Below, piece after piece: positions 9,278-29,440 of a DNA stretch of 64,000 nt (positions are counted from its first letter, which is position 1; every line of letters starts with the position of its first letter). The stretch comes from Tabrizicola oligotrophica. GTDB taxonomy: Bacteria; Pseudomonadota; Alphaproteobacteria; Rhodobacterales; Rhodobacteraceae. The stretch is taken from positions 186,001 through 250,000 of the forward strand of contig NZ_JAAIVJ010000003.1 in NCBI RefSeq assembly GCF_011008935.1, given 5' to 3'. The notes below the pieces were generated by a model. The model ran no database searches, had not been told where the DNA came from, and saw nothing but the letters and a program-made list of their open reading frames with translations. Both the position numbers and the translations under genes were made by a program.

Positions 9278-9361
9278 GGCCGAAAAATACCAGTTATTTG
9301 ACACATCGTCCATTCGGCTTTTCGCGGCAATCCGTCACTGTCAGTGAAAAGGGAGAGCACC
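9278..9361 (+). promoter_or_regulatory. pobR-pobA intergenic promoter region
   Basis: Contains a consensus-like -35 TTGACA at 9298-9303 reading toward pobA, though no good -10 was found at the right distance. A perfect 5+1+5 inverted repeat CACTG-T-CAGTG lies at 9336-9346, just before the GGGAG ribosome site of pobA. Both are candidates for control by the AraC regulator; unproven. Confidence 0.35.
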
Positions 9362-10531
9362 ATGCGCACACAGGTTGCCATCATCGGCGGCGGCCCCTCC
9401 GGGCTGCTGCTGTCGCAGCTGCTGAACAAGGCGGGCATTGCGACCGTGGTGCTGGAGCGCAAGAGCCGCGACTATGTGCTGTCACGCATCCGGGCCGGTG
9501 TGCTGGAAACCGGGGCGGCCGATCTGATCCGCGCCGCCGGGGCGGGCACGCGGATGGACCGCGAGGGGCATCTGCATGACGGCTGCTATCTGGCCTCGAA
9601 TGGCCGGATGTTCCATGTCGATTTCAAGGGCAGTTGCGGCAAGCAGGTGATGGTCTATGGCCAGACCGAGGTGACGAAAGACCTTTACGACGCACAGGAC
9701 GCCATAGGCGCGACGGTGATCCATGGGGCCGAGGAGGTCGCGCTGCACGATCTGACCAGCGATGCGCCTTACGTCAGCTATACCGTGAACGGCGCTGCGC
9801 ATCGGCTGGGCTGCGACTTTGTCGCCGGCTGCGACGGGTTCCACGGCGTCAGCCGTCCGTCGATGCCGGCCGAGGTCCGGCGCGAATACGAAAAGGTTTA
9901 TCCCTTTGGTTGGCTTGGGATCTTGTCGCGCACTCCACCGGTCGAACATGAGCTGATCTATGCCGCCCATGATCGGGGCTTTGCCCTTGCCTCGATGCGC
10001 CACGCCATGCTGTCGCGCTATTACATCCAGGTGCCGCTGACCGATACGGTCGAGGATTGGTCTGACGAGGCCTTCTGGGCCGAGTTCCGGCGGCGGATGC
10101 CCGAAGCCGTCGCCGCCCGGCTTGTCACCGGGCCGTCGATCGAGAAATCCATCGCGCCCCTGCGGTCCTTCGTGACCGAGCCGATGCGCTGGGGTCGGCT
10201 GTTCCTGTGCGGCGACGCCGCCCATATTGTGCCGCCGACCGGCGCCAAGGGGTTGAACCTTGCCGCCTCCGACGTGCATTACCTGTATGAAGGGCTGGTG
10301 CAGCACTACCGGCAGAACCAGAGCGCCGGGATCGACGCCTATTCCCAGCGCGCCCTTGCCCGGATCTGGCAGGCGATGCGGTTCTCCTGGTCGCTGACCA
10401 CCATGATGCACCGCTTTCCGGGGGCTTCCGACTATGACCGCCGGATGCAGGACAGCGAGCTTGCGCAGCTTGAGACCAATCCCGTCGCGCGTCGGTTGAT
10501 GGCCGAAAATTACACGGGACTGCCCTACTGA
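9362..10531 (+). CDS. pobA: 4-hydroxybenzoate 3-monooxygenase
   Basis: A 389-residue FAD- and NAD(P)H-dependent hydroxylase converting 4-hydroxybenzoate to protocatechuate, feeding the beta-ketoadipate pathway. The FAD dinucleotide motif AIIGGGPSGLLLSQLL lies at residues 7-22, then SRIRAGVLE, the DG motif GCDGFHGVSR and the second FAD motif GDAAHIVPPTGAKGLNLA. Length is exactly that of the family. The ATG at 9362 follows GGGAG; an upstream GTG at 9344 would add six residues. Ends convergently, overlapping the amidohydrolase gene by seven bases. Confidence 0.95.
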   Translation: MRTQVAIIGGGPSGLLLSQLLNKAGIATVVLERKSRDYVLSRIRAGVLETGAADLIRAAGAGTRMDREGHLHDGCYLASNGRMFHVDFKGSCGKQVMVYGQTEVTKDLYDAQDAIGATVIHGAEEVALHDLTSDAPYVSYTVNGAAHRLGCDFVAGCDGFHGVSRPSMPAEVRREYEKVYPFGWLGILSRTPPVEHELIYAAHDRGFALASMRHAMLSRYYIQVPLTDTVEDWSDEAFWAEFRRRMPEAVAARLVTGPSIEKSIAPLRSFVTEPMRWGRLFLCGDAAHIVPPTGAKGLNLAASDVHYLYEGLVQHYRQNQSAGIDAYSQRALARIWQAMRFSWSLTTMMHRFPGASDYDRRMQDSELAQLETNPVARRLMAENYTGLPY

Positions 10532-11954: not shown

Positions 11955-11965
11955 CGGAGCCGGCG

Positions 11966-12802: not shown

Positions 12803-12853
12803 GCCGCAAGGGCGCCGCGCCCTAGCCTCAGGGCCTCTAACAGGAGGGCCACC

Positions 12854-13312
12854 ATGCTGACGCGCGCCGAGATTGACGACATCCTGAGGCTGATCGACGG
12901 CTCGGACTTTACCGAGCTGAAACTCGAGATGGGCGATCTGAAGCTGGAGCTGCGCAAGGGGGGCCTCGCCCAGCCCTTTCATACTGGCCAAAATATCCCC
13001 GCCGGAGGCATCCAACCGCAGCCGCCGGCCCCGCCCGCAGCCGTTCCGGCCCCGGTTGTCGCCTCGGGCGGCGGGTCGGAGATTCCGGCCCCGCTGCTCG
13101 GCACCTTCTGGCATGCCCCGCGTCCCGGTGCCGAGCCTTTTGTCAGGCCGGGCGATAGTGTCGGCGCCGATACGGTCATCGGCATCATCGAGGTGATGAA
13201 GCTGATGAACTCGGTCGCCGCCGGCATCGCCGGGACGGTTCTGGAAATCACCGCCCCGAATGGCGAACTGGTCGAGCATGGCCAGTGCCTTATCCGCATC
13301 CGGCCGCACTGA
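12854..13312 (+). CDS. Biotin carboxyl carrier protein of an acyl/ketone carboxylase
   Basis: A 152-residue AccB-like carrier. The biotinylation motif is EVMKLMN, with the acceptor Lys at about residue 116, in a C-terminal biotinyl domain (SEIPAPLLGTFWHAPRPGAEPFVRPGDSVGADTVIGIIEVMK onward). The N-terminal 36 residues resemble the AccB helix. The linker at residues 41-70 is Pro/Ala-rich, and its first part (PFHTGQNIPAGG) is encoded by a copy of an intergenic repeat. Begins after AGGAGG and leads the operon; biotin carboxylase follows after one base. Since it is tied to a pyruvate-carboxylase-type transferase, it is probably not the housekeeping AccB. Confidence 0.9.
   Translation: MLTRAEIDDILRLIDGSDFTELKLEMGDLKLELRKGGLAQPFHTGQNIPAGGIQPQPPAPPAAVPAPVVASGGGSEIPAPLLGTFWHAPRPGAEPFVRPGDSVGADTVIGIIEVMKLMNSVAAGIAGTVLEITAPNGELVEHGQCLIRIRPH
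12974..13009 (+). repeat. Dispersed repeat copy inside the biotin-carrier linker
   Basis: The segment CCTTTCATACTGGCCAAA and following TATCCCC-GG-GG bases resemble 19711-19745 (CCTTTCAGACTGGCCCAAA then TATCCTCGGGG), which lies in a non-coding gap. Here it is in frame and encodes linker residues 41-52 of the carrier protein. Confidence 0.6.
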
Positions 13313-13313
13313 A

Positions 13314-14675
13314 ATGACGCCGATCCGCCGCATCTTCATCGCCAACCGGGGCGAGATTGCCGTGCGCATCATCCGCACCGCGCGGGCGCTGGGGATTGAA
13401 ACCGTGCTGGGAGTGTCGCAGACCGACCGCGACAGCCTTGGGGCGCGGCTTGCCACGCGGGCGGTTTGCCTTGGCCCCGGCCCGTCGCGCGACAGTTACC
13501 TGAAGGTGGACACCGTGATGCAGGCCGCGCTGGGCACCGGCTGCGACGCCCTGCATCCGGGCTATGGCTTCCTGTCGGAAAACCGCGATCTGGCGCTGGC
13601 CTGCGACAAGGCCGGGATCACCTTCATCGGCCCCAGCCCGGCCAATCTGGAGGCCGTGGGCGACAAGCTGACCGCCCGCAGTCACGCCGTTGCCGCCGGG
13701 GTGCCTTTGGTGCCCGGCGGCAATGCGGCAAGCCTGACCGAGGCGCAAGAGGTGGCCCGCGACATCGGCTATCCGCTGCTCATCAAGGCGGTGGCGGGTG
13801 GTGGTGGCAAGGGGATGAAGCGGGTGAACCGCCCGCAAGACCTTGCCCCGCAGCTTGATCTGGCGATGGCCGAGGCCGCCGCGGCCTTTGGCGACGGGCG
13901 GGTCTATCTGGAACGCTTCGTCACTTCCGGCAGGCATGTCGAGGTGCAGATCCTGTCGGATGGCGAGACGGTGATCCACGCCGGCGAGCGCGACTGTTCG
14001 GTGCAGCGCCGCTATCAGAAAGTGGTAGAGGAGGCCCCGGCGCCGGGTCTGTCCCCGGCCCTGCGCACCTGTCTTTGCGAGGCTGCCACGGCCTTTGCCC
14101 GCCATATCTGCTATCGCTCGCTCGGGACCGTGGAGTTCATGGTCGATGTGGACCGGGCGGCCTTCTATTTTCTGGAAATGAACGCGCGGATTCAGGTGGA
14201 GCATCCGGTGACCGAGACCATCACCGGGCTGGATCTGGTCGCCCGCCAGATTGCCATCGCCGAGGGCCGGCCCTTGGGGCTGCAGCAGGACGATATCACC
14301 CTGTCCGGCCATGCCATCGAATGCCGGCTGAACGCCGAGGATGTTGCGCATGACTTCCGCCCTTCACCGGGGCGGGTCTCGCTGGCGTGGTTTCCGGCGC
14401 TGCCGGGGCTGCGGGTGGACAGCCATATGACCAGCGGCGCGACAGTCCCGCCGCATTACGACAGCATGGTGGCCAAGCTGATCGCCCATGGTCCGAGCCG
14501 CGCCGCCGCGATTGCCACCATGGCCGAGGCGCTGCGGGTGCTGCGACTGGAAGGCATCGCCACCAACGCGCCCTTGCATGCCGCGATCATGGCCGACCCG
14601 GAGTTCGCGGCGGGCGGCGTCGATACCAATTACCTCGCGGGACTGCTGCCCCGCCTTGCCGGAGGCTGCCCATGA
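13314..14675 (+). CDS. Biotin carboxylase (AccC-like) subunit
   Basis: A 453-residue ATP-grasp enzyme that carboxylates the biotin of the partner carrier using bicarbonate and ATP. Seen: N-terminal domain IRRIFIANRGEIAVRIIRTARALGIE, the glycine-rich ATP lid AVAGGGGKGMKRV at about residues 159-171, HVEVQILSD, and the catalytic segment FLEMNARIQVEHPVTE. Length matches AccC. One base separates it from the carrier stop; its own stop overlaps the next ATG. The ATG at 13314 is preferred to 13260, which would overlap the carrier gene. Confidence 0.94.
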   Translation: MTPIRRIFIANRGEIAVRIIRTARALGIETVLGVSQTDRDSLGARLATRAVCLGPGPSRDSYLKVDTVMQAALGTGCDALHPGYGFLSENRDLALACDKAGITFIGPSPANLEAVGDKLTARSHAVAAGVPLVPGGNAASLTEAQEVARDIGYPLLIKAVAGGGGKGMKRVNRPQDLAPQLDLAMAEAAAAFGDGRVYLERFVTSGRHVEVQILSDGETVIHAGERDCSVQRRYQKVVEEAPAPGLSPALRTCLCEAATAFARHICYRSLGTVEFMVDVDRAAFYFLEMNARIQVEHPVTETITGLDLVARQIAIAEGRPLGLQQDDITLSGHAIECRLNAEDVAHDFRPSPGRVSLAWFPALPGLRVDSHMTSGATVPPHYDSMVAKLIAHGPSRAAAIATMAEALRVLRLEGIATNAPLHAAIMADPEFAAGGVDTNYLAGLLPRLAGGCP

Positions 14676-16132
14676 CCATGTCGCTGATCGACACCACGCT
14701 GCGCGACGGCAACCAGTCGAACTGGGGCGCGACGGGGCTGGACACCGCGATGATGCTGGGCATCGCCCCGGCGATGGACCGGGTGGGGTTCGAGGCAATT
14801 GACTTCACCACATCGACCCATATGGCGGTGGCGGTGCGGTTTTCGAAACAAGACCCCTGGGAGCGGCTGCGCCTGTTCCGCGCCGCCGCGCCGAAAACCA
14901 AGTTGTCTTTCCTGACCACCGGGATGCGCTTTATCTCATGGGAAACCGCCAGCCATGAGTTGATGGAATTCGCCTTCCGGCTTCTGGTCAACAGCGGCAT
15001 CGACCGTTTTGCGGTGATGGACCCGATGAACAATGTCGCCGCGATGCGGACCATGGCGGACCTCACGCGCAAGGCTGGGGGGCGCGACATCGTGGCGGCG
15101 CTGACCTTCACGCTTTCGCCGCTGCATGACGATGCGCATTTCGCCGAGGCGGCGCGCAAGCTGACCGAGGCCGGCCAGTTCGACCGACTTTACCTGAAAG
15201 ACCCCGGCGGGCTGGTGACGCCGGACCGCGCCCGCACGCTGATCCCGGCGATCGGCGCGGCCATCGCCGTGCCGCTGGAGTTTCATTCGCATTCAACCAT
15301 CGGCCTTGCGCCCTTCAGCTATCTGGAGGCCGCGGAGCTGGGTGCGCACTGCCTGCATACCTCGTCCTCCGCCGCCGCCAATGGCACCGGCCAGCCCGCC
15401 ATGACGCCGACCATCCGCAACCTGCGCGATCTGGGGCTGACGGTGGACGTCGATGACGAGGCGGTGGCCGAAATGGACGACTGGTTCACCGCGCTGGCGC
15501 AGGCCGAAGGCTTGGCGCATGGCGTGCCCGGCGAGTTCGACCGCAGCTATTTCCGCCACCAGATGCCCGGCGGCATGATGGGCACGATGAAGCGCCAGCT
15601 TGCCGAAATGAAGCGCCTGCACCTTCTGCCGCAAGTGCTGGAGGAGGTGGAGCATGTCCGCGCTGATCTCGGCTATCCGATCATGGTGACGCCGTTTTCG
15701 CAGCTTGTGGGGTCTCAGGCGCTGATGAACGTGCTGTCGGGCAAGCGCTATGAAACCGTGCCGGATGAGGTGACGCGCTATGTTCTGGGCCGGTTCGGCG
15801 CGCCCGCGATGCCGCTTGACCCACAAGTCGAGGACCGGATCAGGTCGTCGAAACGCGCGCGGGAACTGGAGGACGAGCCGCATATGGCCTCGCTCGATGA
15901 GCTGCGCGCCAAGGTCGGCCGGGGCTATTCGGACGAGGAGTTCCTTTTGCGCGCCGTGATGCCCGCCGATCAGGTCGACGCGATGAACGCCGCCGGACCT
16001 GCGCCGCGCGGCTATGATCCCCGGACGCGGGCCTTGAAATATCTGGTCGGCGAGTTGACAAGGCGGCCGACCCTGTCGGGCGTGAAGATCACCAAGCCCG
16101 GCTTTTCCCTGCAATTGAACGGAGGCCGCTGA
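14672..16132 (+). CDS. Carboxyltransferase subunit, pyruvate-carboxylase/oxaloacetate-decarboxylase-like, substrate unknown
   Basis: A 486-residue HMGL-like TIM-barrel protein with the C-terminal conserved carboxylase domain but no biotinyl domain. The start is LIDTTLRDGNQSNWG: Arg11, Asp12 and Gln15 correspond to the PC R-D-x-x-Q set. The carboxylated-Lys motif is YLKDPGG (Lys176) and the metal pair is FHSHS (His205, His207), against HTHD in PC. The pyruvate-contacting Arg of the PC LLRxxN motif is replaced by Thr (FLTTGMR). The catalytic core is thus kept but the acceptor pocket altered. Together with the carrier and the biotin carboxylase it forms a three-gene carboxylase; I infer an enolisable ketone or oxoacid acceptor other than pyruvate. 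Confidence 0.85.
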   Translation: MTMSLIDTTLRDGNQSNWGATGLDTAMMLGIAPAMDRVGFEAIDFTTSTHMAVAVRFSKQDPWERLRLFRAAAPKTKLSFLTTGMRFISWETASHELMEFAFRLLVNSGIDRFAVMDPMNNVAAMRTMADLTRKAGGRDIVAALTFTLSPLHDDAHFAEAARKLTEAGQFDRLYLKDPGGLVTPDRARTLIPAIGAAIAVPLEFHSHSTIGLAPFSYLEAAELGAHCLHTSSSAAANGTGQPAMTPTIRNLRDLGLTVDVDDEAVAEMDDWFTALAQAEGLAHGVPGEFDRSYFRHQMPGGMMGTMKRQLAEMKRLHLLPQVLEEVEHVRADLGYPIMVTPFSQLVGSQALMNVLSGKRYETVPDEVTRYVLGRFGAPAMPLDPQVEDRIRSSKRARELEDEPHMASLDELRAKVGRGYSDEEFLLRAVMPADQVDAMNAAGPAPRGYDPRTRALKYLVGELTRRPTLSGVKITKPGFSLQLNGGR

Positions 16133-16950
16133 TGCATTCCCACCCGATCCGCGCCGCGGTGTTCGACATCGACGGCACGCTGGCCATGATGGACAAGGAC
16201 AGCGGCACCTATGCTGCCCTGCCCGGCGCGGTCGAGGCGCTAGCCGCGCTCAGGGCGCGTGGGCTGCCGGTGGTGGCCTATACCAACGGCACCTTCTTTC
16301 CGCCGGCGCATTACTATCCGCTCCTCGCCGATGCCGGGCTGGTGCTGGCGCCGGGGCATATCCTGACCCCGGCCACGGTGGCGGCGCGGCAACTGGCGAA
16401 GATGGGGGTGAAGCGGCTTTTGACCATCGCCGCCGATGGCACCCGCGTGCCGCTGCGCGACGCCGGGATCGAGGTGGCGCTGACAGGTGAGGGCGGCGAG
16501 GTGGATGGCGTCATCCTCGGCTGGACCAAGGATTTCGGCGCGCAGGATCTGGAGGAGGCAGCGCAGCTTCTCTGGGCCGGCAAGCCGCTTTACGCCACTT
16601 CGATCGCGCCACATTTCGCCGGGGCCAAGGGGCGGCTTCTGGGGATTTCGGGCGCGGTGGCGGCGGCCTTGCACAACGCGACCGGGGTGAAGGCCCGGGT
16701 GTTCGGCAAGCCGGAAACCGTCGGGCTTGAGGACATCTCGGACATGCTGGGCATTCCGGCGGCCGAGATGGTGGTGATCGGCGACGACCCCAAGCTGGAG
16801 ATCGCCATGGCCCGCAAGGCCGGGGCCTTTGCCGTGGGGGTGACGACGGGCACGGTCGACGGGGCCGGGTTCGAGGCCGCCGAGGCCGCGCTGCGTGCCC
16901 ATGTCGTGCTGCCGGGGCTCGCCGGGTTGATGGCGCAGGGGTGGTGGTGA
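16132..16950 (+). CDS. HAD-IIA (NagD-like) phosphatase
   Basis: A 272-residue haloacid-dehalogenase hydrolase of the NagD/PGP type. Motif I is AAVFDIDGTLAMMD, motif II VVAYTNGT, and the C-terminal part is KPETVGLEDISDMLGIPAAEMVVIGDDPKLEIAMARKAG. A C2-type cap lies between about residues 80 and 190. ATG overlaps the carboxyltransferase TGA by one base and its TGA overlaps the ligase ATG, so it is a committed member of the operon. Its phosphorylated substrate is unknown; a phospho-intermediate or a by-product of the pathway are options. Confidence 0.85.
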   Translation: MHSHPIRAAVFDIDGTLAMMDKDSGTYAALPGAVEALAALRARGLPVVAYTNGTFFPPAHYYPLLADAGLVLAPGHILTPATVAARQLAKMGVKRLLTIAADGTRVPLRDAGIEVALTGEGGEVDGVILGWTKDFGAQDLEEAAQLLWAGKPLYATSIAPHFAGAKGRLLGISGAVAAALHNATGVKARVFGKPETVGLEDISDMLGIPAAEMVVIGDDPKLEIAMARKAGAFAVGVTTGTVDGAGFEAAEAALRAHVVLPGLAGLMAQGWW

Positions 16951-18929
16951 TGGTCGCGGAGGGCGCGCTGCTCTGGACCGCCTCCGACGCCCGCAAGGCG
17001 GACCTGAACCTGACGCAGTTCCTCGGCTGGCTGAAGGCGCGGGGTCATGGCTTTTCCGGCTACGCCGATCTGTATCAGTGGTCGATCACCGACCTTGCCG
17101 GCTTCTGGGGCGCGGTGCGCGATTACTTCGGCCTGATCCTTGAGGGCCAGCCCGAGCCGGTGCTGACCGATGCCGCCATGCCCCGCACCCGCTGGCTGCC
17201 GGCGGCGCGGCTGAACTATGCCGAACATGTCCTGCGGCACGAGACCGCGGGCGATGCCGCCCGCCCGATGCTGCACCATGTCTCGGAACTGCGCCCGATG
17301 GCCGAGATGAGCTGGGCGGAGGTCGGCGGCGCGGTGCGCAAGCTGGCCACCCGGCTGCGCGCCATGGGCATCGGCCCCGGCGACCGGGTGGTGGCCTATA
17401 TGCCGAACCTGCCGGAAACCGTGATCGCCATGCTGGCGACCACCGCGATTGGCGCCGTCTGGTCCTCGGCCGCGCCGGAGTTTGGCGCCCAGACCGTGAT
17501 CGACCGCTTTTCGCAGATCGCACCGAAGCTGGTCTTCGCCGTCAACGGCTATCGCTATGGCGGCAAGGACTTCGACCGCTCCGCCGATCTGGACCGCATC
17601 CTTGCGGCGCTGCCGACGGTCGAAACCGTGGTGATGCTCGACTATCTGTCCGGCGCCGGCATGCGGGAAACCGCCCTGCCATGGGACAGCCTCTTCACCG
17701 GCCCCGAAGTGCCGCCCGAGGCCTTCACCTTTACCCGTGTCGATACCAACCATCCGCTGTGGGTCCTGTTCACCTCCGGCACCACCGGCCTGCCGAAACC
17801 CATCACCCACGGCCACCACGGCATCGTGCTGGAACACCTGAAAACCGCCGCCTTCCATTATGAACTGAAGCCGGGACAGGCGCTTTTGTGCTATTCCACC
17901 ACCGGCTGGATGGTGTGGAACACGCTGATGATGGCGCCGCTGATGAACGGCCGCGCCGTGCTTTATGACGGCCATCCCAGCTTTCCCGATGCCCGCCGGA
18001 TGTGGCAGATTGCCGAAGAAACCCGCGCCTCGGTCTTTGCCACCTCGCCGACCTTTCTGCAGATGGTGCGCAGTCAGGGCATCGACCCGGCGCGGGAGTT
18101 TGCCCTGCCGGCGCTGGAAACCCTGCTGCTGGTCGGCTCGCCCGCGACGCCCGAAACCTTCGCCTGGGCGCAGACGGCTGTGAAACCCGACCTCTGGGTC
18201 ACCTCGCAGTCCGGTGGCACCGAATTCTGCTCCGGCACGCTGGCCGGCTCGCCACTGCTGCCCACGCGGGCCGGTGAAATTCAGGCCCCGGCGCTGGGGG
18301 TCGACGTGCGCGCGCTCTCGGAGGAGGGCGAAACGCTGATCGGTGCCGAGGGCGAGCTTGCCATCCTGAAACCGATGCCCTCGATGCCGCTCTGTCTCTG
18401 GGGCGATGCGGAGTTCGCCCGCTACGAGGCCAGCTATTTCGACACCTGGCCCGGCATCTGGCGCCATGGCGACCGGCTGCGGATGCTGGCGCATGGCAGC
18501 AGCTTCGTGCTGGGCCGCTCCGACGCCACGCTGAACCGCTTCGGCGTGCGGATCGGCTCGGCCGAGGTCTACCGCACGATGGAGGGTATCGCGGGGGTGG
18601 CCGACAGCCTCATCCTTTGTGTCGAGGATGGCAAGGGCGGCTACTGGATGCCGCTCTTCGTGCAGATGGCCGCGGGCGCCGATCTGGACGAGGCCAAGCG
18701 CCACGAAATCATCCACCGGCTGCGCAGCGAACGCTCGCCCCGCCATGTGCCGGACGAGATCATCGCGGCGCCGGAAATTCCCGTCACCCTGACCGGCAAG
18801 AAGATGGAGGTTCCGGTGCGCAAGCTGATGCTGGGTCTGCCGCTGGACAAGGCCGCCAGCCGGGATGCAGCCCGCAACCCCGCCGCGCTAGACTGGTTCG
18901 CCGACCTCGCGCGGAAGCGGCAGGCATGA
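16950..18929 (+). CDS. Acetoacetate-CoA ligase-like acyl-CoA synthetase
   Basis: A 659-residue ANL-superfamily enzyme with the length and N-terminal ACS_N-like extension (LTQFLGWLKARGHGFSGYADLYQWSITDLAGFWGAVRDYFG) of acetoacetyl-CoA synthetases. The P-loop is VLFTSGTTGLPKPITHGHHG, followed by the SQSGGTEFCSG adenylate motif, WRHGDRL and a C-terminal LTGKKMEVPVRKLM Lys region. It would adenylate a beta-keto or short branched acid and ligate CoA. Directly after a carboxylase, it fits activation of the beta-keto acid made by ketone carboxylation. GTG/ATG choices upstream exist; ATG 16950 overlaps the HAD stop. Confidence 0.88.
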   Translation: MVAEGALLWTASDARKADLNLTQFLGWLKARGHGFSGYADLYQWSITDLAGFWGAVRDYFGLILEGQPEPVLTDAAMPRTRWLPAARLNYAEHVLRHETAGDAARPMLHHVSELRPMAEMSWAEVGGAVRKLATRLRAMGIGPGDRVVAYMPNLPETVIAMLATTAIGAVWSSAAPEFGAQTVIDRFSQIAPKLVFAVNGYRYGGKDFDRSADLDRILAALPTVETVVMLDYLSGAGMRETALPWDSLFTGPEVPPEAFTFTRVDTNHPLWVLFTSGTTGLPKPITHGHHGIVLEHLKTAAFHYELKPGQALLCYSTTGWMVWNTLMMAPLMNGRAVLYDGHPSFPDARRMWQIAEETRASVFATSPTFLQMVRSQGIDPAREFALPALETLLLVGSPATPETFAWAQTAVKPDLWVTSQSGGTEFCSGTLAGSPLLPTRAGEIQAPALGVDVRALSEEGETLIGAEGELAILKPMPSMPLCLWGDAEFARYEASYFDTWPGIWRHGDRLRMLAHGSSFVLGRSDATLNRFGVRIGSAEVYRTMEGIAGVADSLILCVEDGKGGYWMPLFVQMAAGADLDEAKRHEIIHRLRSERSPRHVPDEIIAAPEIPVTLTGKKMEVPVRKLMLGLPLDKAASRDAARNPAALDWFADLARKRQA

Positions 18930-19866: not shown

Positions 19867-20187
19867 CTAGCGCCCCGTCGCCACCTGAAACACCGCGCCC
19901 TCCAGCGCCGGCGTCACGACAATCTGGCAGGTCAGCCGGCTGTTTTCCCGAGGTTCATGGGCGTTGAACTCCACTGTGTCGGCTTCGTCCTGCTTCGGGG
20001 CCGCCAGCGCGCCCTCGGGGGCCGCGATCACATAGCAATGGCAGGTGGCGCACATCGCGCTGCCGCCGCATTCGGCGATGATGCCCCGCACCCCGGCGTT
20101 GCGCGCCGGATACATCAGCGGCTCGCCCACCACCGCCGCAATCGCGCGCCGCGTGCCATCCGCCTCGATGAACGTCACCTGAACCAT
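19867..20187 (-). CDS. [2Fe-2S] ferredoxin, putidaredoxin/adrenodoxin type
   Basis: A 106-residue plant/vertebrate-hybrid ferredoxin of the class that feeds bacterial P450s. The cluster cysteines are arranged as ECGGSAMCATCHCYV and LTCQIV, that is C-x5-C-x2-C and a distal C, as in putidaredoxin. Starts after a GGGGAA site. Last gene of the P450 operon, so it is the natural electron donor for the P450 eight genes upstream. No ferredoxin reductase gene is visible in the window; a reductase must come from elsewhere. Confidence 0.9.
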   Translation of the reverse strand: MVQVTFIEADGTRRAIAAVVGEPLMYPARNAGVRGIIAECGGSAMCATCHCYVIAAPEGALAAPKQDEADTVEFNAHEPRENSRLTCQIVVTPALEGAVFQVATGR

Positions 20188-20197
20188 TGCATTCCCC

Positions 20198-20941
20198 TCA
20201 GATAAACTGCCGCCCGCCGTCGATCACCAGCGTCTGCCCGGTCATGTAGCCCGCGAGCGGCGAGGCCAGCATCAGCGCGCCGCCGACGATGTCTTCCACC
20301 TCGGCCGGCCGCTTCAGCGCCGCGCGGTCGATGCCATAGCTGCGGGCGTTCTCGATCAGGCCAAGGCTGGCCTCGGTCATGGTGAAGCCCGGCGCCAGCA
20401 CGTTCACCCGCACCCCGTCGGCGCCCATCTCCTTGGCCATGGTGCGGCTGAGGCCGATCACCGCGCCCTTGGAGGCGACATAATGCATCCATTGCGGCGA
20501 GCCGGAGAACACCGTGGCCGAGGCGATGTTGACGATCGCCCCTTTCGCGGCGCGCAGGGCGGGCGAGAAGGCCCGGCACATCTGCCAGACGCCTTTGACG
20601 TTGACCGCCATGACCCGGTCCCAGACCTCTTCGTCGAGATCCTCGAAATCGCGCCGCTCCAGCCCGCCATAGATCGCGGCGTTGTTCACCAGCACATCCA
20701 CCCCGCCCATCCGCGCCTGCGCCAGATCGGCCAGCGCGCGGCAACTCGCGGTGTCGGTCACATCGACCTGCGCGGCAAGCCCGCCGGTTGCGGCGGCGGT
20801 TTCCTCGCAGCCTGCAAGGTTCAGATCGCAGGCCAGCACCCGCGCCCCGGCCCCGGCGAAGGCCAGCGCGAAGGCGCGGCCAAGGCCCCCCGCTGCGCCG
20901 GAGACGACCACCCGTTTGCCCGACAGTCCCAGATCGGTCAT
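20198..20941 (-). CDS. SDR-family oxidoreductase
   Basis: A 247-residue classical SDR with VVVSGAAGGLGRAFALAF at residues 10-27, VNNAAIYGG, INIASATVF-type Ser region (IVNIASATVFS) and YVASKGAVIGLSRT as active site; ends LVIDGGRQFI. ATG overlaps the HD-protein stop (ATGA). It belongs to the P450 operon and would oxidise a hydroxylated intermediate. Cofactor preference and substrate are not readable. Confidence 0.87.
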   Translation of the reverse strand: MTDLGLSGKRVVVSGAAGGLGRAFALAFAGAGARVLACDLNLAGCEETAAATGGLAAQVDVTDTASCRALADLAQARMGGVDVLVNNAAIYGGLERRDFEDLDEEVWDRVMAVNVKGVWQMCRAFSPALRAAKGAIVNIASATVFSGSPQWMHYVASKGAVIGLSRTMAKEMGADGVRVNVLAPGFTMTEASLGLIENARSYGIDRAALKRPAEVEDIVGGALMLASPLAGYMTGQTLVIDGGRQFI

Positions 20942-21543
20942 GCGCCCGTCTCCATATATCGTGTCAGTTGCCGTTCCGCCCGCAGGCTGGCGGTGAACCC
21001 CTCGGCCATCGCCTTGCCCGGCGCCGTCAGGAGCCGCGGGTTCGACACCACCGTCACCATGTCGATGTAGTCGGCCAGCGACCAGTCATACCAGCCGCGG
21101 ATGATCCGCATGCCATGCGGCGTGGTGCGCCAGCCCTTGTCGGCATCCTTCATCACCGCATCGTTCAAGGACCGCGCCTCGGTCGTGGTGTCGTGCCCGT
21201 CGATGATGGCAAGGATTTCGTCGACCCGGCCCAGACCGTGCCGCGTCAGGATCTCCCGCGCGATGACGACCGAATGGCGTTCGTGTTCAAACACCAGATC
21301 GCGCCGCGTCGGGTTGCGGCCGATGGCGGCCAGCAGAAGATCGGGCGGGATACGCTTCCAGCCGACGTCATGCAGCAGGATCGCCGGCAGCACCACATCG
21401 GCCTCGGCCTCGGGCAGGGCGGCGAGCAGCGCCCTGGCGACGCCGTAGGCGACCAGCGTGTGTTCGTCATTGTTGCGCACGTCAAGGAAGGGCCGGGCCT
21501 CGTGCCACAGCACCTCGTCCTGCGGGCGCAGAAGCGCGGTCAT
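20938..21543 (-). CDS. HD-domain protein 1 with six candidate metal ligands
   Basis: A 201-residue single-domain HD protein. His28, His58-Asp59 (LLHDVGW), His87 (FEHER), His117 (IDGHD) and Asp135 (KDADKGW) form an H...HD...H...H...D set that fits a dinuclear centre. This pattern is known both from phosphohydrolases and from mixed-valent diiron oxygenases (PhnZ, myo-inositol oxygenase), which cannot be told apart by eye. It is a paralogue of the HD protein at 22986-23582, with all six positions conserved. ATG overlaps the aldehyde dehydrogenase stop; the next SDR overlaps its own stop. Confidence 0.82.
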   Translation of the reverse strand: MTALLRPQDEVLWHEARPFLDVRNNDEHTLVAYGVARALLAALPEAEADVVLPAILLHDVGWKRIPPDLLLAAIGRNPTRRDLVFEHERHSVVIAREILTRHGLGRVDEILAIIDGHDTTTEARSLNDAVMKDADKGWRTTPHGMRIIRGWYDWSLADYIDMVTVVSNPRLLTAPGKAMAEGFTASLRAERQLTRYMETGA

Positions 21544-22976
21544 CGCGGCACCTCGTAACTCAGATACATGGTCTTGTATTCCAGATAGCTTTCCACCCCG
21601 TAGCGCCCCTTCTCGCGCCCCAGCCCGCTTTCCTTGACGCCGCCGAAGGGTTCGTAATGCGAGGAGCGCTGGATGTCGTTCAGCCAGACCGACCCGGCCT
21701 CCATCCCTTCGCAGAGCGTCAGGCCGCGGGCGAGATCGCGGGTAAAGACGAAGCCGGCGAGGCCATAGCGGTTGTCATTGGCGAATTTCAAGCCCTGCCA
21801 GGGGTCATCGACCGGGCAGATCCCCAGCACCGGGCCGAAGGTTTCCTCGGTCAGCACCAGCATCTCATGGCTCGCATCGGCCACCAGTGTCGGCTGATAG
21901 TAGAAGCCGCCGTCAAAGCCGGGCCCGGTCTGGCGCTGGCCGCCGCAGAGGATGCGGGCGCCCTTGGCGCGGGCGTCGTCGACCTGAACGGCGCTGTTTG
22001 CATAGATCTTCTCGTTGACCAGCGGGCCAAGGTCGCCCTCGCCGCCGGCGGGCGCGAGGGTGAACTGCCGCACCCGCGCCAGCAGCTTTTCAAGGAAGGC
22101 CTCATAGACCGGGCGCTCGACATAGATCCGGTTCACCCGGTAGCAGAACTGGCCGGAATTGGCGAAGCCGTGGCGGGCAATCGCCTCGGCCGCCTTGTCG
22201 ATGTCGGCATCGGCACAGACGATGGCCGCCGACTGGCCGCCCAGCTCCAGCGTCACGCGTTTCATGGTCTGCACCGCGGCGGCGGCAATCGCCTTGCCCG
22301 CCGTGGTGCCGCCGGTGAAGGCGATTTTCCGCGGGACCGGATGGTTGACCAGCGCCTCGCCAATCGCCCGGCCCGCGCCGGTGACGACGTTGAACACGCC
22401 CTTCGGCAGCCCCGCCTTGTGGAACAGCTCGGCCAGAAGAAGCGTCGAGGTCGGCGTGTCGGCCGAGGGCTTGGCGACGACGGTGCAGCCCGCCACCAGC
22501 GCGGCGCCGAGTTTGAACATCAGCAGGTTCAGCGGATAGTTGAACGGCGTGATCGCCACCACCACCCCGACCGGATCGCGGGTGACGACGGTTTTCTCGC
22601 CGGGGCCGCCCGAGGTCATGGCGGCGTGCAGCCGCAGGCCTTCCTCGGCGTAGATGTCAAGAAGGTCGGCAGCGCGGTTCACCTCTTGCAGACATGCGGG
22701 CAGCGGGCGGCCAAGCTCGCGGTGCAGCGCGGTGCCGATGGTTTGGCCGGCGTCGCGCATCGCCTGCGCCAGTTTCTTTTGCAGGCGCACCCGGTCCGCC
22801 ATGGGGGTCTTGCGCCACAGCTCGAACGCGGCGGCGGCAGAGCGGATGGCGAGGTCGGCATCCTGCGCATTGCCCTGCGGCACGGTGTCGAACTGGGCGC
22901 CCGAGCGCGGATCGGTCACGGGTTGCGTGGCGCCGGTGACCGAAGCCGTCCAGGCCCCGTTGATGAACATCTCCAT
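21540..22976 (-). CDS. NAD(P)-dependent aldehyde dehydrogenase
   Basis: A 478-residue ALDH. Seen: VVVAITPFNYPLNLLMFKLGAALVAGC near residue 135, the glycine motif FTGGTTAGKAI, catalytic Glu in TLELGGQSAA, catalytic Cys in NSGQFCYRVNRIYV, and EETFGPVLGI. Closest in feel to succinate-semialdehyde/benzaldehyde/vanillin-type dehydrogenases. Nine bases after the second HD gene and overlapping the first HD gene, so it is in the P450 operon and should oxidise an aldehyde produced in that pathway. Confidence 0.92.
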   Translation of the reverse strand: MEMFINGAWTASVTGATQPVTDPRSGAQFDTVPQGNAQDADLAIRSAAAAFELWRKTPMADRVRLQKKLAQAMRDAGQTIGTALHRELGRPLPACLQEVNRAADLLDIYAEEGLRLHAAMTSGGPGEKTVVTRDPVGVVVAITPFNYPLNLLMFKLGAALVAGCTVVAKPSADTPTSTLLLAELFHKAGLPKGVFNVVTGAGRAIGEALVNHPVPRKIAFTGGTTAGKAIAAAAVQTMKRVTLELGGQSAAIVCADADIDKAAEAIARHGFANSGQFCYRVNRIYVERPVYEAFLEKLLARVRQFTLAPAGGEGDLGPLVNEKIYANSAVQVDDARAKGARILCGGQRQTGPGFDGGFYYQPTLVADASHEMLVLTEETFGPVLGICPVDDPWQGLKFANDNRYGLAGFVFTRDLARGLTLCEGMEAGSVWLNDIQRSSHYEPFGGVKESGLGREKGRYGVESYLEYKTMYLSYEVPR

Positions 22977-22985
22977 GGCCCGCTC

Positions 22986-23582
22986 CTACAGCACATGCAC
23001 TTTCAGCGCCTTGCGGGTTTCCGCCAGCGCCGCCGTGGCCATGGCCCGGCCCGGCTCGGTTTCGAATTTCGGCAGGATCTTCTCGTTGCGCCGGCAGTTC
23101 TCGGCCGGTGTCTCGCCGAACCAGTCGCAGCCCACCGCCGTGCCCGTCACCTCGTAGCGCCAGAGCTTGTCACTGTCGCGGACGATGCGGTCGTTGAGAT
23201 GGCGCGGTTCTGGCCGCGTGTCATGGCCGTCGATGATCTCGCAGACCTGCGCGATGATGTCTTCGCTCCAGCCGGTCGCGCGCAGCACCTCGGTGCCCAG
23301 CCGCACGCCCTCGGCCTCGTGCCGGTAGCGCACATCGGATTGCAGGATGTTTTCCGACCGGAAGCCTTCGGAAATGATGGTCTCCATGTCGATCGCCCAC
23401 CAGCCGATGTCGTGCAAGAGGATCGCCAGCAGGCAGACGTCGCGGTCGGCCTGCGGGAAATGCTCCAGAAGCCGGACGCACCAGTCGAAGGACAGGGGGA
23501 TATGCACATCGTTCTTGCGAGCGCGCATGTAGGGTTCGGCGGCACGCCAGACCGGGTCATAGCGCGAGAGGTCGAGGCTCAT
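22986..23582 (-). CDS. HD-domain protein 2, paralogue with six candidate metal ligands
   Basis: A 198-residue HD protein. The ligand set is His27, His57-Asp58 (LLHDIGW), His88 (YRHEA), His120 (IDGHD) and Asp138 (RDSDKLWR). It aligns over most of its length with HD protein 1 (shared LLHD-GW, -IIDGHDT, R-LND, D-DK-WR). Both copies keep the complete set, so neither looks degenerate; a heterodimer or two sequential steps are possible. The ATG at 23582 is chosen because upstream codons run into the phosphotransferase gene. Not recognised as a named enzyme. Confidence 0.82.
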   Translation of the reverse strand: MSLDLSRYDPVWRAAEPYMRARKNDVHIPLSFDWCVRLLEHFPQADRDVCLLAILLHDIGWWAIDMETIISEGFRSENILQSDVRYRHEAEGVRLGTEVLRATGWSEDIIAQVCEIIDGHDTRPEPRHLNDRIVRDSDKLWRYEVTGTAVGCDWFGETPAENCRRNEKILPKFETEPGRAMATAALAETRKALKVHVL

Positions 23583-23617
23583 GGCAAGGGTCCAACAGGT
23601 TGCGGGAAAGGCGGCCC

Positions 23618-23639: not shown

Positions 23640-23650
23640 AGGCGCCCGGT

Positions 23651-25462
23651 TTACTCCAGAATCGTCACGGTGCCGGTGTTGCCATCGACCCGCAGCCGCA
23701 TGCCGGTCTTGATCTTCGCCGTCGCGGTGCCGGTGCCGGTCACCGCCGGCAGGCCGTATTCGCGGCAGACGATCGCGGCGTGGCTCATCATGCCGCCGAT
23801 GTCGGTGACAGCGGCTGCAATCTTGCCAAAGACCGGAGCCCAAGAGGGGGCGGTGACCGGCGTGACCAGAATCTCGCCCTTCTGCAACTCGCCCAATTGG
23901 TCAGGGCTGCGCAGCACGCGGGCGATGCCCTCCACCGCGCCCGGCGCGGCCGCCATGCCCTTCAGCCCGGCCCCGTCGTCGCCCTTCCCGGTCCAGCGGT
24001 CGATGGCGTCTGAGGTGATGCCCCAAAGCATGATGGTGAAGGGTTCGGTGATGACCTCGGGCGGCTCGTTCAGCGCGGGCAGCGGCGGCTGGCTGGCCAG
24101 CGCCTTGACCAGCGCGCGGCGGCGGGACACTTCTTCAGGCCAGACGGCAGAGCCGACATTCGGCGTGCCGATCGCCCAAGAGGCGGCATAGTCCCACAGC
24201 ACGTCGCGCACCTCGTTGCGGTGCAGGAAAAACATGCCGTCCTCCTCGGCCCAGAAGTCGGCGCCTTGCAGGAGCTTCGACAGCTCGCGCATCTTGCGCC
24301 AGAATACGCCCAGCGCCCAATGCTCGATGTAGAAGTTGTGATCCTCAACGTAGGGAAACACGGTGCGGGCAAGGCCCAGCTTGCCGTCGAACACCGCCTG
24401 CGCCTCTTCGTCCATCATGTCGCGGTATTCGCTAGTGATCCGGTCGCGCTCTGTCAGCAGCCGCTCGGTCGGGCGTTCGATCTGCTCGCCGGCCTTGGCG
24501 CGGGGGATGTAGTCGCGCAGATAGCCGAGCGGAATGTCGAGGTGGTCGATCCAGTATTTGTCGGTCGAGTAAAAGCCGTTTCCGCTGGTGAAGTTGAACC
24601 ACGGGTCCTGCGCCTGTTTCCAGGCGGTCAGCCATTTCTGGCCGTTCGGGGCCTTGCCCACCGCCGCCAAAGCCTCGTCCACCGTGCCGCTCATCAGCGC
24701 GCCATCGACGCCCAACTCCACCGCCAGCCGCGCCAGCTTCTTGATCTCGTCATCGGGGCGGAACAGTTCGCTGTCCACTCCCTGCACCATCTTGGCAATC
24801 GCTTGATCGGGGATGGTGGGGAACTGCGATTTCACGAAGCCGAAGAAATCGAGATAGGCGGCATAGCCGAGGTTCAGAAATTCGAAGTGGTATTGCCAGA
24901 TCTTGTAGGAAAGCTCGATCGCCTTGTCATAGGCCTCGAACAGGGCGTTGGTATTGTCGAGCCCGACGCCACCCTTGACCCATTCCACCGGCACGACATC
25001 CGGCAAGTCGGTGAAGGAAATCGCGTCCAGCTCGGCGATCATCGCCAGAACCTTCTTCTTCCAATTGGCGTAAAGGTCGTTCCAGTTGCCGAAGTAATGC
25101 CCGGCCCGGTCAAGGAATTGCGGGATGCGGGCCTCGATGTTCTCGGGCGCCACAGCGACGGGCGAGAAATACACGAAGCCGTTCAGGATGCGGTAGTCGA
25201 TGCCGTTGGCGGGCGGCACCAGAAGATGGCGGCTGTTGTATTGCCCGAGGCATTTGATGGCAAAATCCAGAAAGATCACGTCAAAGGGTCTGAGCGGGTT
25301 CGGCCAGTGCTGGCTGTTGCAGAACCAGAACTTCGCGTCGTCTTCGGCGCGGCGGCTGGGCTGGAAGCGGGTGTAATAGGGGTAAAGGCTTTCCCAGCCT
25401 TCCGCCCCCTTCGGCGCCTTCACGTCAAAGGCACTGGGGAACATCGGGGTCTTGGCGTCCAT
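23651..25462 (-). CDS. PEP-utilising mobile-domain protein, catalytic subunit of a split PEP-synthase-like phosphotransferase
   Basis: A 603-residue protein. The C-terminal domain is the swivelling phosphohistidine domain of PEP synthase/PPDK: TDIGGMMSHAAIVCREYGLPAVTGTGTAT, phospho-acceptor His at about 561. Residues 1-500 are an aromatic-rich substrate-binding region (FWFCNSQHWPNPLRPFD, YNSRHLLVPPANGIDYRI) without the PEP-binding barrel. Size and layout match the 70-kDa subunit of phenylphosphate synthase and the substrate half of rifampicin phosphotransferase. It should receive phosphate from the ATP-grasp partner and pass it to an alcohol, enol or phenol. Strong GGGAGGA site; 43 bases after the partner gene. 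Substrate unknown. Confidence 0.82.
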   Translation of the reverse strand: MDAKTPMFPSAFDVKAPKGAEGWESLYPYYTRFQPSRRAEDDAKFWFCNSQHWPNPLRPFDVIFLDFAIKCLGQYNSRHLLVPPANGIDYRILNGFVYFSPVAVAPENIEARIPQFLDRAGHYFGNWNDLYANWKKKVLAMIAELDAISFTDLPDVVPVEWVKGGVGLDNTNALFEAYDKAIELSYKIWQYHFEFLNLGYAAYLDFFGFVKSQFPTIPDQAIAKMVQGVDSELFRPDDEIKKLARLAVELGVDGALMSGTVDEALAAVGKAPNGQKWLTAWKQAQDPWFNFTSGNGFYSTDKYWIDHLDIPLGYLRDYIPRAKAGEQIERPTERLLTERDRITSEYRDMMDEEAQAVFDGKLGLARTVFPYVEDHNFYIEHWALGVFWRKMRELSKLLQGADFWAEEDGMFFLHRNEVRDVLWDYAASWAIGTPNVGSAVWPEEVSRRRALVKALASQPPLPALNEPPEVITEPFTIMLWGITSDAIDRWTGKGDDGAGLKGMAAAPGAVEGIARVLRSPDQLGELQKGEILVTPVTAPSWAPVFGKIAAAVTDIGGMMSHAAIVCREYGLPAVTGTGTATAKIKTGMRLRVDGNTGTVTILE

Positions 25463-25505: not shown

Positions 25506-26570
25506 CTAGCGCTTGACGGTCAAGGCAGAGTTCAGCGTGCCGACGATCCCCATAATGCCGGTTGCATAGGTCTTTTTCGGGGTTTCGGCCTTCTTCTGAC
25601 TCCAGATGGTTTCGGGGCGCGATTGCAGCGCCAGAAGGTTTTCGCCTTCGGGCAGATCGGCATCTATCGCCCATTCCACGTCTTGCGGGCATTTGTTCTG
25701 CCGCTCCAGCCGCTTGGCCAGCGCGGCCACGGCGACCACCTCGGCGTCAGACAGGCACTGGATGCGGCGGCGGTCTTCGGGCACCTCGCGCTCCACCGCC
25801 TCGCCGCGGACGGCATCGCCCACCAGCTCGACATGCTTGTCGGAAATCTTGCGGTTGGTGATTTCCATCAGCACCTTTTCAACGGTGAAGTTGTCCGGCG
25901 TCACCACGCCCGAGACCACCATCTCGCCAAGGCCCCAGGAAGCGTCGATCACGATCTTCGTCTGGTCGCCGTTCACCGGGTCGATCGACATCACCACCCC
26001 GGCGGCGCGGGCGTTGACCATCTTCTGCACGCCGACGCTCATCAGCACGTCAATATGCGGGATGCGGTTCTTTTCACGGTAGGCCACGGCGCGGGTGGTA
26101 TAAAGCGAGGCCCAGCAATCGCGGACTTTTTCCACCACCTGATCGGCGCCGCGCACCCAGAGGTAGGTGTCCTGCTGGCCGGCAAAGGAGGCGTCCGGCA
26201 GATCCTCGGCCGTGGCCGAGGAGCGCACGGCGACCGGCATGTCGGCGCCCATCTGGGCATAGGCGGTGCGGATCGCCGTCTCGACCGCCGGCGGCAGCTT
26301 GTGGCTGCGGATGCGGATGCGGATCGCCTGCGCAGCGCGGTCGACCTGATCAATGTCGAAGGGGTCGACCCCCGCGAGATGTCGTTCGATCTCGGCGCGC
26401 ATGTCGTGATGGGCCAGCATCGCCTGATAGGCATCGGTCGTCACCGCAAAGCCTGGTGGCACGGCCACGCCGGCCTGCGTCATCTCGCCAAGGCTGGCGC
26501 ATTTGCCGCCGACGCGGGCAAAATCGGCTTGGCTGATGCGGGAAAAATCCAGCGTGAAAAGATCGGTCAT
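25506..26570 (-). CDS. ATP-grasp (PEP/pyruvate-binding domain) subunit of the split phosphotransferase
   Basis: A 354-residue protein equal to the N-terminal nucleotide-binding domain of PEP synthase/PPDK. Seen: VGGKCASLGEMTQAGVAVPPGFAVTTDAY (residues 20-48), MPVAVRSSATAEDLPDASFAGQQDTY (111-136), GVQKMVNARAAGVVMS and a C-terminal LLALQSRPETIW. It ends soon after, so it has no His domain; that domain is the next gene. This is the 40-kDa/70-kDa split known from phenylphosphate synthase. ATG 26570 overlaps the P450 stop by four bases; a longer frame upstream is P450 shadow. Confidence 0.85.
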   Translation of the reverse strand: MTDLFTLDFSRISQADFARVGGKCASLGEMTQAGVAVPPGFAVTTDAYQAMLAHHDMRAEIERHLAGVDPFDIDQVDRAAQAIRIRIRSHKLPPAVETAIRTAYAQMGADMPVAVRSSATAEDLPDASFAGQQDTYLWVRGADQVVEKVRDCWASLYTTRAVAYREKNRIPHIDVLMSVGVQKMVNARAAGVVMSIDPVNGDQTKIVIDASWGLGEMVVSGVVTPDNFTVEKVLMEITNRKISDKHVELVGDAVRGEAVEREVPEDRRRIQCLSDAEVVAVAALAKRLERQNKCPQDVEWAIDADLPEGENLLALQSRPETIWSQKKAETPKKTYATGIMGIVGTLNSALTVKR

Positions 26571-27948: not shown

Positions 27949-29394
27949 TCAACCCGCTTTGGAAAGCTCGCGGTAAAGCGATTTGATTTCAAGCCCTTCG
28001 CTGGCGCCGATCGCCTCCAGCGCCGCGCGGTATTGCCGGTATTGCCGGTGCATGGCATCCAGCCGGCCCTGCGCGACGAAGATCTTCATCGCCTCGGCGT
28101 TGGCGCCTTCGCTGGCCGGGTCGATGCTGAGCGCCTTCTGACAATGCGCCAGCGCCTCGCGGGTGCGGCCCGAGGACATGCAGACCTTGGAGAAGTCGTA
28201 TTGCAGCTTCACCGCCATTTCACGCAGCCAGATCCGGCGCGGCATGCACCAGTCGTCGGTTTCGGACCGCACATATTCCAGCGGCAAATCTTCAAACAAA
28301 TCGCCCCCATAAAGCTGGTCGGCCGCGGCATAGACCCGCAACGCCGCATTCAACTCGCCCCGCTTGTAGAGCGACAGGCCGCGGCGGCAGAGCTGCTCGA
28401 AGGTGTCGATGTCGATCCAGCTTCCGGGCGGGGCGCTCAGCCGGTAGGTCTCGCCCACCCGCTCCACCGCGCCCGGTTCGCCCAGCGTCTTGCGCAGCAT
28501 GGCGACGGTGTGGTGCAGCCGGGTGCGCTTCACCTCCTCCGATTCGCCCTCGGGCCAGAGGAGTTCGCCAAGCTGGTCGGCATGGGCGCCCTTGTCACCG
28601 CTTTGCAGCAGATAGGCGAACAGCGTCCGGGTCTTTTTCGGCGCGCCGCCGGGAAGCTGCCAGTTCACTTCCTGCCCTCCGATGAAGACCTTCAGCCGGC
28701 CAAGGCAATGCACATGCCAGCGCGCCGCCTTGGCCGGGTTGCCAAGCCCGGCGCGCGGCGGGGCAAGCCAGGACGGCGTCGCGCCGCGGGCAAACATCTG
28801 GCCCTGCTGGCGGCGGGCCAGAAGCCCGGTATAATCGGGCACCACCCGGCCCAGCATGAAGGAAAGCTGTTCATCCAGCGCGCCGCCTTCCAGCAGGCTG
28901 GCGGGAATCCAGTAGGGGTTTTCGTAAAGTCCCGAGGGCGCGAGGAATTGCCGGTGCGCGCGCAGCGCGGCCTGAATCTGCTCCTCGATCGTCAGGTCCT
29001 GATTGTAGAGCGAGATCACCGGCAGGTCGAAATGCGCCGCCAGCCGGTCGGCCACGCCGCCCCAGTTCTCCAGCCCGGTGACGCCTTGCAGGTTGCCGAC
29101 GACCCAGCCCATGTCGACCACCAGCGCGGCGATGCCGCGGGCCTTTTCCAGCTCTTGCCGCAGCCGCACAAAGGCCTCTTCCGGGTCCATCGGCGAATGG
29201 TCCAGCCCGGCTTGATCGAAGCTGATCCGCCGCGCGGCGGGCATGTCCGGCAAGAGCCGCAAATCGTCGCTGACCAGCCAGGTCTTGCCGGGGCTGGCCA
29301 TCAGCGCCAGCGCCTTGGCGACAAAGCCGGCCACCGCGAAATCGGCGATCAGCGCGGCATTGATGCGTTCGTCAGGTTTGGGTTTGCGGGCCAT
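27949..29394 (-). CDS. MEDS-like sensory domain fused to a SARP/BTAD transcriptional activator
   Basis: A 481-residue regulator. Residues about 10-195 resemble the MEDS/DcmR sensory domain (GKTWLVSDDLRLLP, DMGWVVGNLQGVTGLENWGG, LPVISLYNQDLTIEEQIQAALRAHRQFL, GLYENPYWIP). Residues about 225-330 form an OmpR-like SARP winged helix (HCLGRLKVFIGGQEVNW, RTLFAYLLQSGDKGAHADQLGELLWPE, TRLHHTVAMLRKTLGE). The rest is a BTAD TPR domain ending in YRQYRAALEAIGASEGLEIKSLYRELSKAG. Start at 29394 follows an A/G-rich site; 29436 would add 14 residues. It lies between the P450 operon and the divergent GMC gene and likely activates both. Confidence 0.85.
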   Translation of the reverse strand: MARKPKPDERINAALIADFAVAGFVAKALALMASPGKTWLVSDDLRLLPDMPAARRISFDQAGLDHSPMDPEEAFVRLRQELEKARGIAALVVDMGWVVGNLQGVTGLENWGGVADRLAAHFDLPVISLYNQDLTIEEQIQAALRAHRQFLAPSGLYENPYWIPASLLEGGALDEQLSFMLGRVVPDYTGLLARRQQGQMFARGATPSWLAPPRAGLGNPAKAARWHVHCLGRLKVFIGGQEVNWQLPGGAPKKTRTLFAYLLQSGDKGAHADQLGELLWPEGESEEVKRTRLHHTVAMLRKTLGEPGAVERVGETYRLSAPPGSWIDIDTFEQLCRRGLSLYKRGELNAALRVYAAADQLYGGDLFEDLPLEYVRSETDDWCMPRRIWLREMAVKLQYDFSKVCMSSGRTREALAHCQKALSIDPASEGANAEAMKIFVAQGRLDAMHRQYRQYRAALEAIGASEGLEIKSLYRELSKAG

Positions 29395-29440
29395 GGGTTC
29401 TCTTTCTTTGGGAAAACTATAGTCGGTGACCGGCAAATGT

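Follow-up and report, generated by a model that had tools for sequence, protein, structure and literature searches.

What role would two paralogous HD proteins play when both are encoded in one operon, on either side of an aldehyde dehydrogenase (ALDH), and each carries a complete set of six metal ligands? This question is raised by the window—a stretch of 64,000 nucleotides from Tabrizicola oligotrophica (contig NZ_JAAIVJ010000003.1, positions 186,001 to 250,000)—whose minus strand at 20938-23582 consists of three genes: HD-B (22986..23582; 198 amino acids), the ALDH gene (21540..22976), and HD-A (20938..21543; 201 amino acids). An earlier note on this sequence had proposed either a dephosphorylation or an oxidative C-C cleavage. 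In the likeliest reading of our results the two proteins would be phosphatases for different phosphorylated intermediates, and we hold it to be quite probable that they serve a cre-type pathway as metal-dependent phosphohydrolases, with HD-B as CreD and the uncharacterised HD-A as a second enzyme.

The ligands are those that the note had given: H28/H58-D59/H87/H117/D135 in HD-A, and H27/H57-D58/H88/H120/D138 in HD-B. Because the six positions are invariant in the 156 homologues compared (82/82 in clade A and 74/74 in clade B, which clades are described below, the first His of clade B being conserved in 73/73 as one incomplete row stops short of it), these sets are not the product of chance. 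According to PMC8177086, this six-residue motif diagnoses a dinuclear site and is found in YqeK and in the HD oxygenases. The dinuclear-type site that had been suggested earlier thereby gains support, in that HD-A and HD-B both carry the motif expected of a dinuclear HD phosphatase; the H/HD/H/H/D pattern of the HD oxygenases is present as well and, being common to YqeK, is not diagnostic. The two proteins match Pfam HD (PF01966) at 32.0 and 32.8 bits, both above the cut-off of 22, are 34% identical to each other, and were the sole two matches of their kind in a genome-wide search, which found no third copy. An NCBIfam search gave neither of them a name, and sequence searches of the PDB returned nothing useful for HD-A alone and nothing for the HD protein of the reference locus L149, which locus is introduced below. 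Beyond the ligands, K132 is invariant in clade A, with Arg at the equivalent place in clade B; clade B in turn has R20 (72/73), R85, R123, and R135 fully or almost fully conserved, at positions not fixed in clade A; and an invariant Arg stands five residues before the first His in both (R23 in HD-A, R22 in HD-B).

The operon containing the pair reads, on the minus strand, regulator, cytochrome P450, ATP-grasp subunit, swivel subunit, HD-B, ALDH, HD-A, SDR (short-chain dehydrogenase/reductase), and ferredoxin; its genes are tightly coupled, with ATGA overlaps at the P450/CreI, ALDH/HD-A, and HD-A/SDR junctions and a gap of 9 bases from HD-B to the ALDH gene. The P450 (26567..27823) is CreJ-like, matching the PDB entries 5xjn, 7ccf, and 5gwe at an E of about 1e-126, which entries—listed in the database as cytochrome P450 only—we take to be CreJ of Corynebacterium glutamicum. 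The two subunits of a predicted aryl dikinase follow: the CreI/HpeI/PpsB-type ATP-grasp subunit (25506..26570; PPDK_N, 377 bits), whose likely start codon, at 26570, overlaps the stop codon of the P450 gene as an ATG within a reading frame that is open from 26744; and the CreH/HpeH/PpsA-type substrate and swivel subunit (23651..25462), which matches NF006150 at 1006 bits (cut-off 650) and contains the sequence TDIGGMMSH with the putative phosphoryl His561. That sequence is the T/SxxGGxxxH motif of PMC12167813, in which HpeHI, CreHI, and PpsAB are described as two-component small-molecule dikinases. When 14 named control genomes were searched with NF006150, a match appeared in C. glutamicum alone (at E up to 1e-40). 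The SDR alcohol dehydrogenase (20198..20941; 54% to L149) lies at the creG position, the 2Fe-2S ferredoxin (19867..20187; a Fer2 match, 42% to L149) at the creF position, and the ALDH, between the two HD genes, at the creC position (36% to its L149 counterpart); the three genes are on the minus strand. The window accordingly holds the components by which a cre pathway is recognised: a CreHI-type aryl dikinase, a CreJ-type P450, an SDR (CreG), and an ALDH (CreC).

The likely identity of HD-B follows from L149, a locus of genome G375 with a P450 almost identical to 5xjn and a gene order—P450, CreI, CreH, SDR, ferredoxin, ferredoxin reductase, HD, ALDH—is the creJ-to-creC order listed for C. glutamicum. 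PMC7764795 gives cg0645-cg0637 of that species as creJ to creC, and calls creD a phosphohydrolase. The single HD protein of L149, at the creD position, belongs to class B by profile (259 versus 158 bits); and since HD-B falls in the same clade as this protein, HD-B is most likely the orthologue of the aryl-phosphate phosphohydrolase CreD. The details of CreD enzymology are reportedly to be found in Du et al., 2016. As judged from its gene content, the operon matches the cre (4-cresol) phosphorylation pathway for 4-alkylphenols, which match bears out the dephosphorylation alternative of the earlier note along with the association that it had drawn between the HD pair, a phosphotransferase, and the ALDH.

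To place HD-A, 84,980 species genomes were scanned using five aligned HD proteins; 335 relatives were obtained, the best 80 were kept, and with four plasmid loci and the window they gave 85 stretches for comparison. HD genes occur in 83 of these, 156 in total (two in 73 stretches, one in 10), and a FastTree tree of the 156 proteins divides them into a clade B of 74 and a clade A of 82, with branch supports of 0.95 and 1.0. Every one of the 73 two-HD loci has one member of each clade, and the tree indicates that the clades are anciently separate, with no recent duplication. Those loci are distributed among the Pseudomonadota (47), the Bacteroidota (12), and the Actinomycetota (12), two—the window among them—being without label; on the stretches fetched, CreH is present in 69, the P450 in 68, and the ALDH in 69 of the 73. 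HD-B adjoins the ALDH gene in 70/73, and HD-A adjoins the SDR gene in 58/73 of the two-HD loci, though in 0/12 of those from Actinomycetota. In the window's own family (394 genomes) the kinase exceeds the cut-off in 12, and two HD genes are found in exactly those 12; a single HD gene occurs in one (G777) of the other 382. In an actinobacterial family of 401 genomes, 17 have HD genes—two in 10, one in 6, and fragments in 1—and all six single proteins are of class B. HD-B without HD-A is the condition of the corynebacterial-type and of some Rhodococcus genomes, and in Enteractinococcus and Citricoccus HD-A is present on a contig other than that of HD-B and the kinase. From this sampling, the HD-A clade is seen to occur almost only together with the cre-type pathway, in three phyla.

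On these grounds we propose the following sequence of reactions. The two-component dikinase (CreH plus CreI) would phosphorylate a 4-alkylphenol, for instance 4-cresol, on its phenolic hydroxyl group, the alkyl carbon of the resulting phosphate ester would be oxidised by the CreJ-like P450 together with the ferredoxin, the HD phosphohydrolases would remove the phosphate after the P450 step, and the SDR and ALDH would complete the oxidation to 4-hydroxybenzoate. PobA, the predicted 4-hydroxybenzoate 3-monooxygenase (9344..10531, plus strand; TIGR02360, 659 bits, cut-off 538.7), would then convert 4-hydroxybenzoate to protocatechuate. HD-A would be another phosphohydrolase acting in this pathway, long separate from HD-B; the gene adjacencies in the two-HD loci suggest that HD-A may act ahead of the SDR and HD-B ahead of the ALDH, in which case the benzyl alcohol might be released by HD-A and the aldehyde by HD-B. 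Some other loci have a toluene-4-monooxygenase beside the operon, and others have a protocatechuate dioxygenase, a PcaB-like lyase, a PcaCD-like protein, and a CoA transferase as neighbours, which genes, with PobA, fit a conversion of 4-cresol (sometimes from toluene) to 4-hydroxybenzoate and then to protocatechuate.

Several observations weigh against this proposal. The activity ascribed to HD-A is a prediction for every protein of clade A; and the scan, having been ranked by likeness to HD-A, over-represents the loci that possess it, a bias that weighs less in the two family surveys. Since HD-A lies away from the SDR gene in all 12 of the actinobacterial two-HD loci, the assignment of the alcohol to HD-A and of the aldehyde to HD-B rests on two phyla; and where HD-B suffices, as in the corynebacterial-type genomes among others, HD-A is absent, which implies that these genomes can do without its step. 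For neither clade is the link to the pathway strict, because a member of each is found without the kinase: an A-type HD protein in the acidobacterial locus L107, in whose genome CreH was not found, and the HD gene of G777. The metagenome-assembled genome (MAG) of a member of the Rhodobacteraceae at L039, on a contig of only 6.4 kb, likewise has HD-A with no full kinase found. The operon of the window contains a ferredoxin and no ferredoxin reductase, the nearest in the genome being at 42%: two candidates lie elsewhere, with 42% and 40% to a Rhodococcus reductase. Finally, PMC8177086 states that phosphohydrolases typically keep an Arg three residues before the first His; in HD-A and HD-B this Arg is not at that place, the invariant one standing five residues before the His.

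As to the surroundings of these exceptions, the A-type HD gene of L107 lies in a region (8362-13688) with genes for a thiamine-pyrophosphate enzyme, an ATPase-like protein, and a glyoxalase/dioxygenase, and possibly belongs to another phosphate-ester pathway. The HD gene of G777, closer to HD-B by BLAST, lies with an ALDH gene (L181, 6797-8940) beside a complete TRAP (tripartite ATP-independent periplasmic) transporter, without kinase or P450, and this pair may use an imported phosphate ester. CreH is in two pieces in L060 and L065—Tropicibacter naphthalenivorans and a Maritimibacter MAG—of which L060 is also without HD-B, owing either to decay or to an assembly error.

If, as one alternative, HD-A hydrolysed the product of the kinase reaction or some unwanted ester, such as the unoxidised aryl phosphate, the protein would serve as a safety valve or regulator instead of catalysing a pathway step. 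The lineages that dispense with HD-A speak in favour of such a function, as does the position of HD-A beside an IclR regulator in actinobacteria; in the Pseudomonadota and Bacteroidota, however, HD-A lies between the ALDH and SDR genes, and in the window the starts and stops overlap, which arrangement suggests expression as a pathway enzyme. We consider the safety valve unlikely, though less so than the two alternatives that follow.

If, alternatively, HD-A and HD-B formed an obligate heterodimer with one catalytic and one structural chain, the retention of both genes together in 73 loci would be explained, and several HD phosphatases are indeed dimers (PMC8177086). Nevertheless, corynebacterial-type and Rhodococcus genomes have a complete operon in which HD-B is without HD-A, the six ligands are retained in both proteins, where a structural partner would need none, and in actinobacteria HD-A lies apart from HD-B, on another contig in two genomes. 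A heterodimer is accordingly improbable, and as a requirement we reject it because HD-B stands alone in several lineages; of the "heterodimer or two steps" that the earlier note had offered, the two steps, in the form of two substrates, are plausible, whereas the heterodimer is unnecessary.

The same note had called for predicted structures to be compared with PhnZ and YqeK. The AlphaFold2 models have a mean pLDDT (predicted local distance difference test) of 95.1 for HD-A and 94.7 for HD-B, and for neither model did Foldseek return a match at E 0.001 or better. By VIA the nearest fold was 2pq7 (for HD-A, Z 16.8, root-mean-square deviation 3.0, 163 residues aligned; for HD-B, Z 17.2, 2.9, and 161), followed by YpgQ (Z 15.8 and 15.9, respectively) and then by relatives including yedJ. 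Those nearest folds are HD hydrolases, and no HD oxygenase is among the VIA matches listed, absence from which list decides nothing. When the PDB was searched by profile, HD-B recovered 2pq7 (E 0.0046), HD-A had no match below 0.6, and no HD oxygenase appeared at E up to 10. According to PMC8177086, a YxxE loop is a feature of PhnZ and TmpB; this loop is not at the corresponding place in 58 A-type and 50 B-type rows, and MIOX (myo-inositol oxygenase) is also without it. That one of the pair, most likely HD-A, might be a mixed-valent diiron oxygenase of the PhnZ or MIOX kind, cleaving a hydroxylated intermediate, is thus very improbable—despite the complete six-ligand motif common to YqeK and the HD oxygenases (PMC8177086) and the invariant residues of HD-A that are absent from HD-B, such as K132—in view of the profile results, the missing loop, and a pathway in which the P450 already provides the oxidation and dephosphorylation is what is needed. 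The PhnZ-type oxygenase was rejected by the loop together with the pathway context, and the C-C cleavage once envisaged is not supported; HD-A and HD-B are best read as phosphatases whose metals are predicted from the ligand sets.

On the plus strand, the window also contains at 12854-18929 the gene set of an Hpe pathway (by comparison with PMC9618137): a biotin carboxyl carrier protein, hpeC-like (12854..13312); a biotin carboxylase, hpeA-like (13260..14675); a carboxyltransferase, hpeB-like (14675..16132); a HAD phosphatase, hpeD/NagD-like (16132..16950); and an acyl-CoA ligase of the acetoacetyl-CoA type, hpeE-like (16941..18929). The same set is present in L035 and L182. PobA would catalyse the step that follows this route as well as the cre route. 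In the three Hpe operons compared in PMC13101465 the kinase lies inside the operon, as it does within the hpe operon of the Rhizobium locus L035. The module of the window has no kinase of its own, the one such kinase of the genome being cre-type and located in the opposite operon. A cre operon neighbours the carboxyltransferase gene in the window and in 11 of the loci fetched, and each of the 12 genomes concerned carries a single kinase locus of the NF006150 type, which in G467 and G481 is split in two. A tree of 74 kinases groups that of the window with 70 that are P450-linked, apart from four of hpe-, pps-, or BC-linked clusters. Its identification as a phenylphosphate carboxylase (pps/ppc) kinase was rejected: the Azoarcus locus L036 has that gene set with no HD gene, and its kinase groups with the other non-P450 kinases. 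A tie of HD-A to the hpe module was also rejected, most two-HD loci being without a carboxyltransferase gene on the stretch fetched.

The shared-kinase arrangement was unexpected, and suggests that the cre and hpe routes have merged, possibly for the use of 4-ethylphenol. Ethylphenyl phosphates are among the compounds that CreJ can oxidise. HpeCBA carboxylates the phosphorylated ketone only (PMC9618137), and from this need a ketone phosphate, made by the P450 from phosphorylated 4-ethylphenol, is suggested. On that basis, we entertain as tentative, and as rather doubtful in its entirety, the notion that the cre operon forms one system with the hpe module, itself devoid of a kinase, in which system a single cre-type kinase would tag 4-alkylphenols, the P450 would oxidise the side chain of the phosphate ester, and three phosphatases would sort the intermediates—HD-A the benzyl alcohol, HD-B the aldehyde, and the HAD enzyme the carboxylated ketone—with 4-ethylphenol passing through 4-phosphoacetophenone to the biotin carboxylase with no acetophenone kinase.

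In the remainder of the operon region, a probable operon regulator of the BTAD-TPR type with a weak N-terminal MEDS-like match is encoded at 27949..29436 (minus strand); a BTAD/TPR regulator adjoins the operon in many loci of the Pseudomonadota and Bacteroidota, and an IclR-type gene takes that place in the Actinomycetota. A G+C-rich inverted repeat, CCTCCCTCCCCCC...GGGGAGGGGGG, lies at 23611-23643 between the kinase gene and HD-B, perhaps as a hairpin for mRNA processing or attenuation. Beyond the regulator, on the other strand at 29524-33522, are a choline-dehydrogenase-like GMC oxidoreductase and a branched-chain-type ABC transporter, the GMC family being present in 13 of the 85 stretches, that of the window included.

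By these results, the pair would be ordinary in kind, as phosphatases of a known pathway, the unusual elements being the conserved, uncharacterised second phosphatase and the shared-kinase arrangement. A literature search whose reach did not extend to the main cre papers found no account of two HD phosphatases or of a kinase shared between cre and hpe. The range of a pathway known from Corynebacterium now takes in marine Rhodobacteraceae, rhizobia, and Bacteroidota. Should HD-A and HD-B discriminate between intermediates according to oxidation level, the phosphate tag would act as a routing label beyond its function as an activating group; if the merged system is real, an aerobic alkylphenol route would make use of carboxylation, and the shared kinase would open ethylphenols and lignin-derived phenols to an aerobic route.

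Among the known systems, the p-cresol degradation of Rhodococcus opacus 1CP follows a different, meta-cleavage route (PMC13101518). The YpgQ/YedJ-like HD hydrolases and 2pq7 have the best folds and a DAD(K/R)L region in common with HD-A and HD-B, yet YpgQ is reported in PMC8177086 as mononuclear and acting on deoxynucleoside triphosphates, whereas HD-A and HD-B carry the six-ligand set. YqeK, a dinuclear HD phosphatase, has the same order of the six-ligand motif but acts on diadenosine tetraphosphate (Ap4A; same source) and is not the closest to the pair by fold or sequence. With the Hpe/Acv pathway of Rhodococcus rhodochrous GD02 and Sphingobium SYK-6 the window shares the biotin carboxylase parts, the NagD-like HAD phosphatase, and the CoA ligase, though its module is without a kinase of its own. 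With the cre pathway of C. glutamicum (creC-creJ), the window shares the kinase pair, the P450, the ferredoxin, the SDR, the ALDH, the HD-B gene, and the kinase clade; but it has two HD genes where the relative examined has one, a regulator of the BTAD type in place of IclR, an operon without ferredoxin reductase, and a different gene order, with an hpe module alongside.

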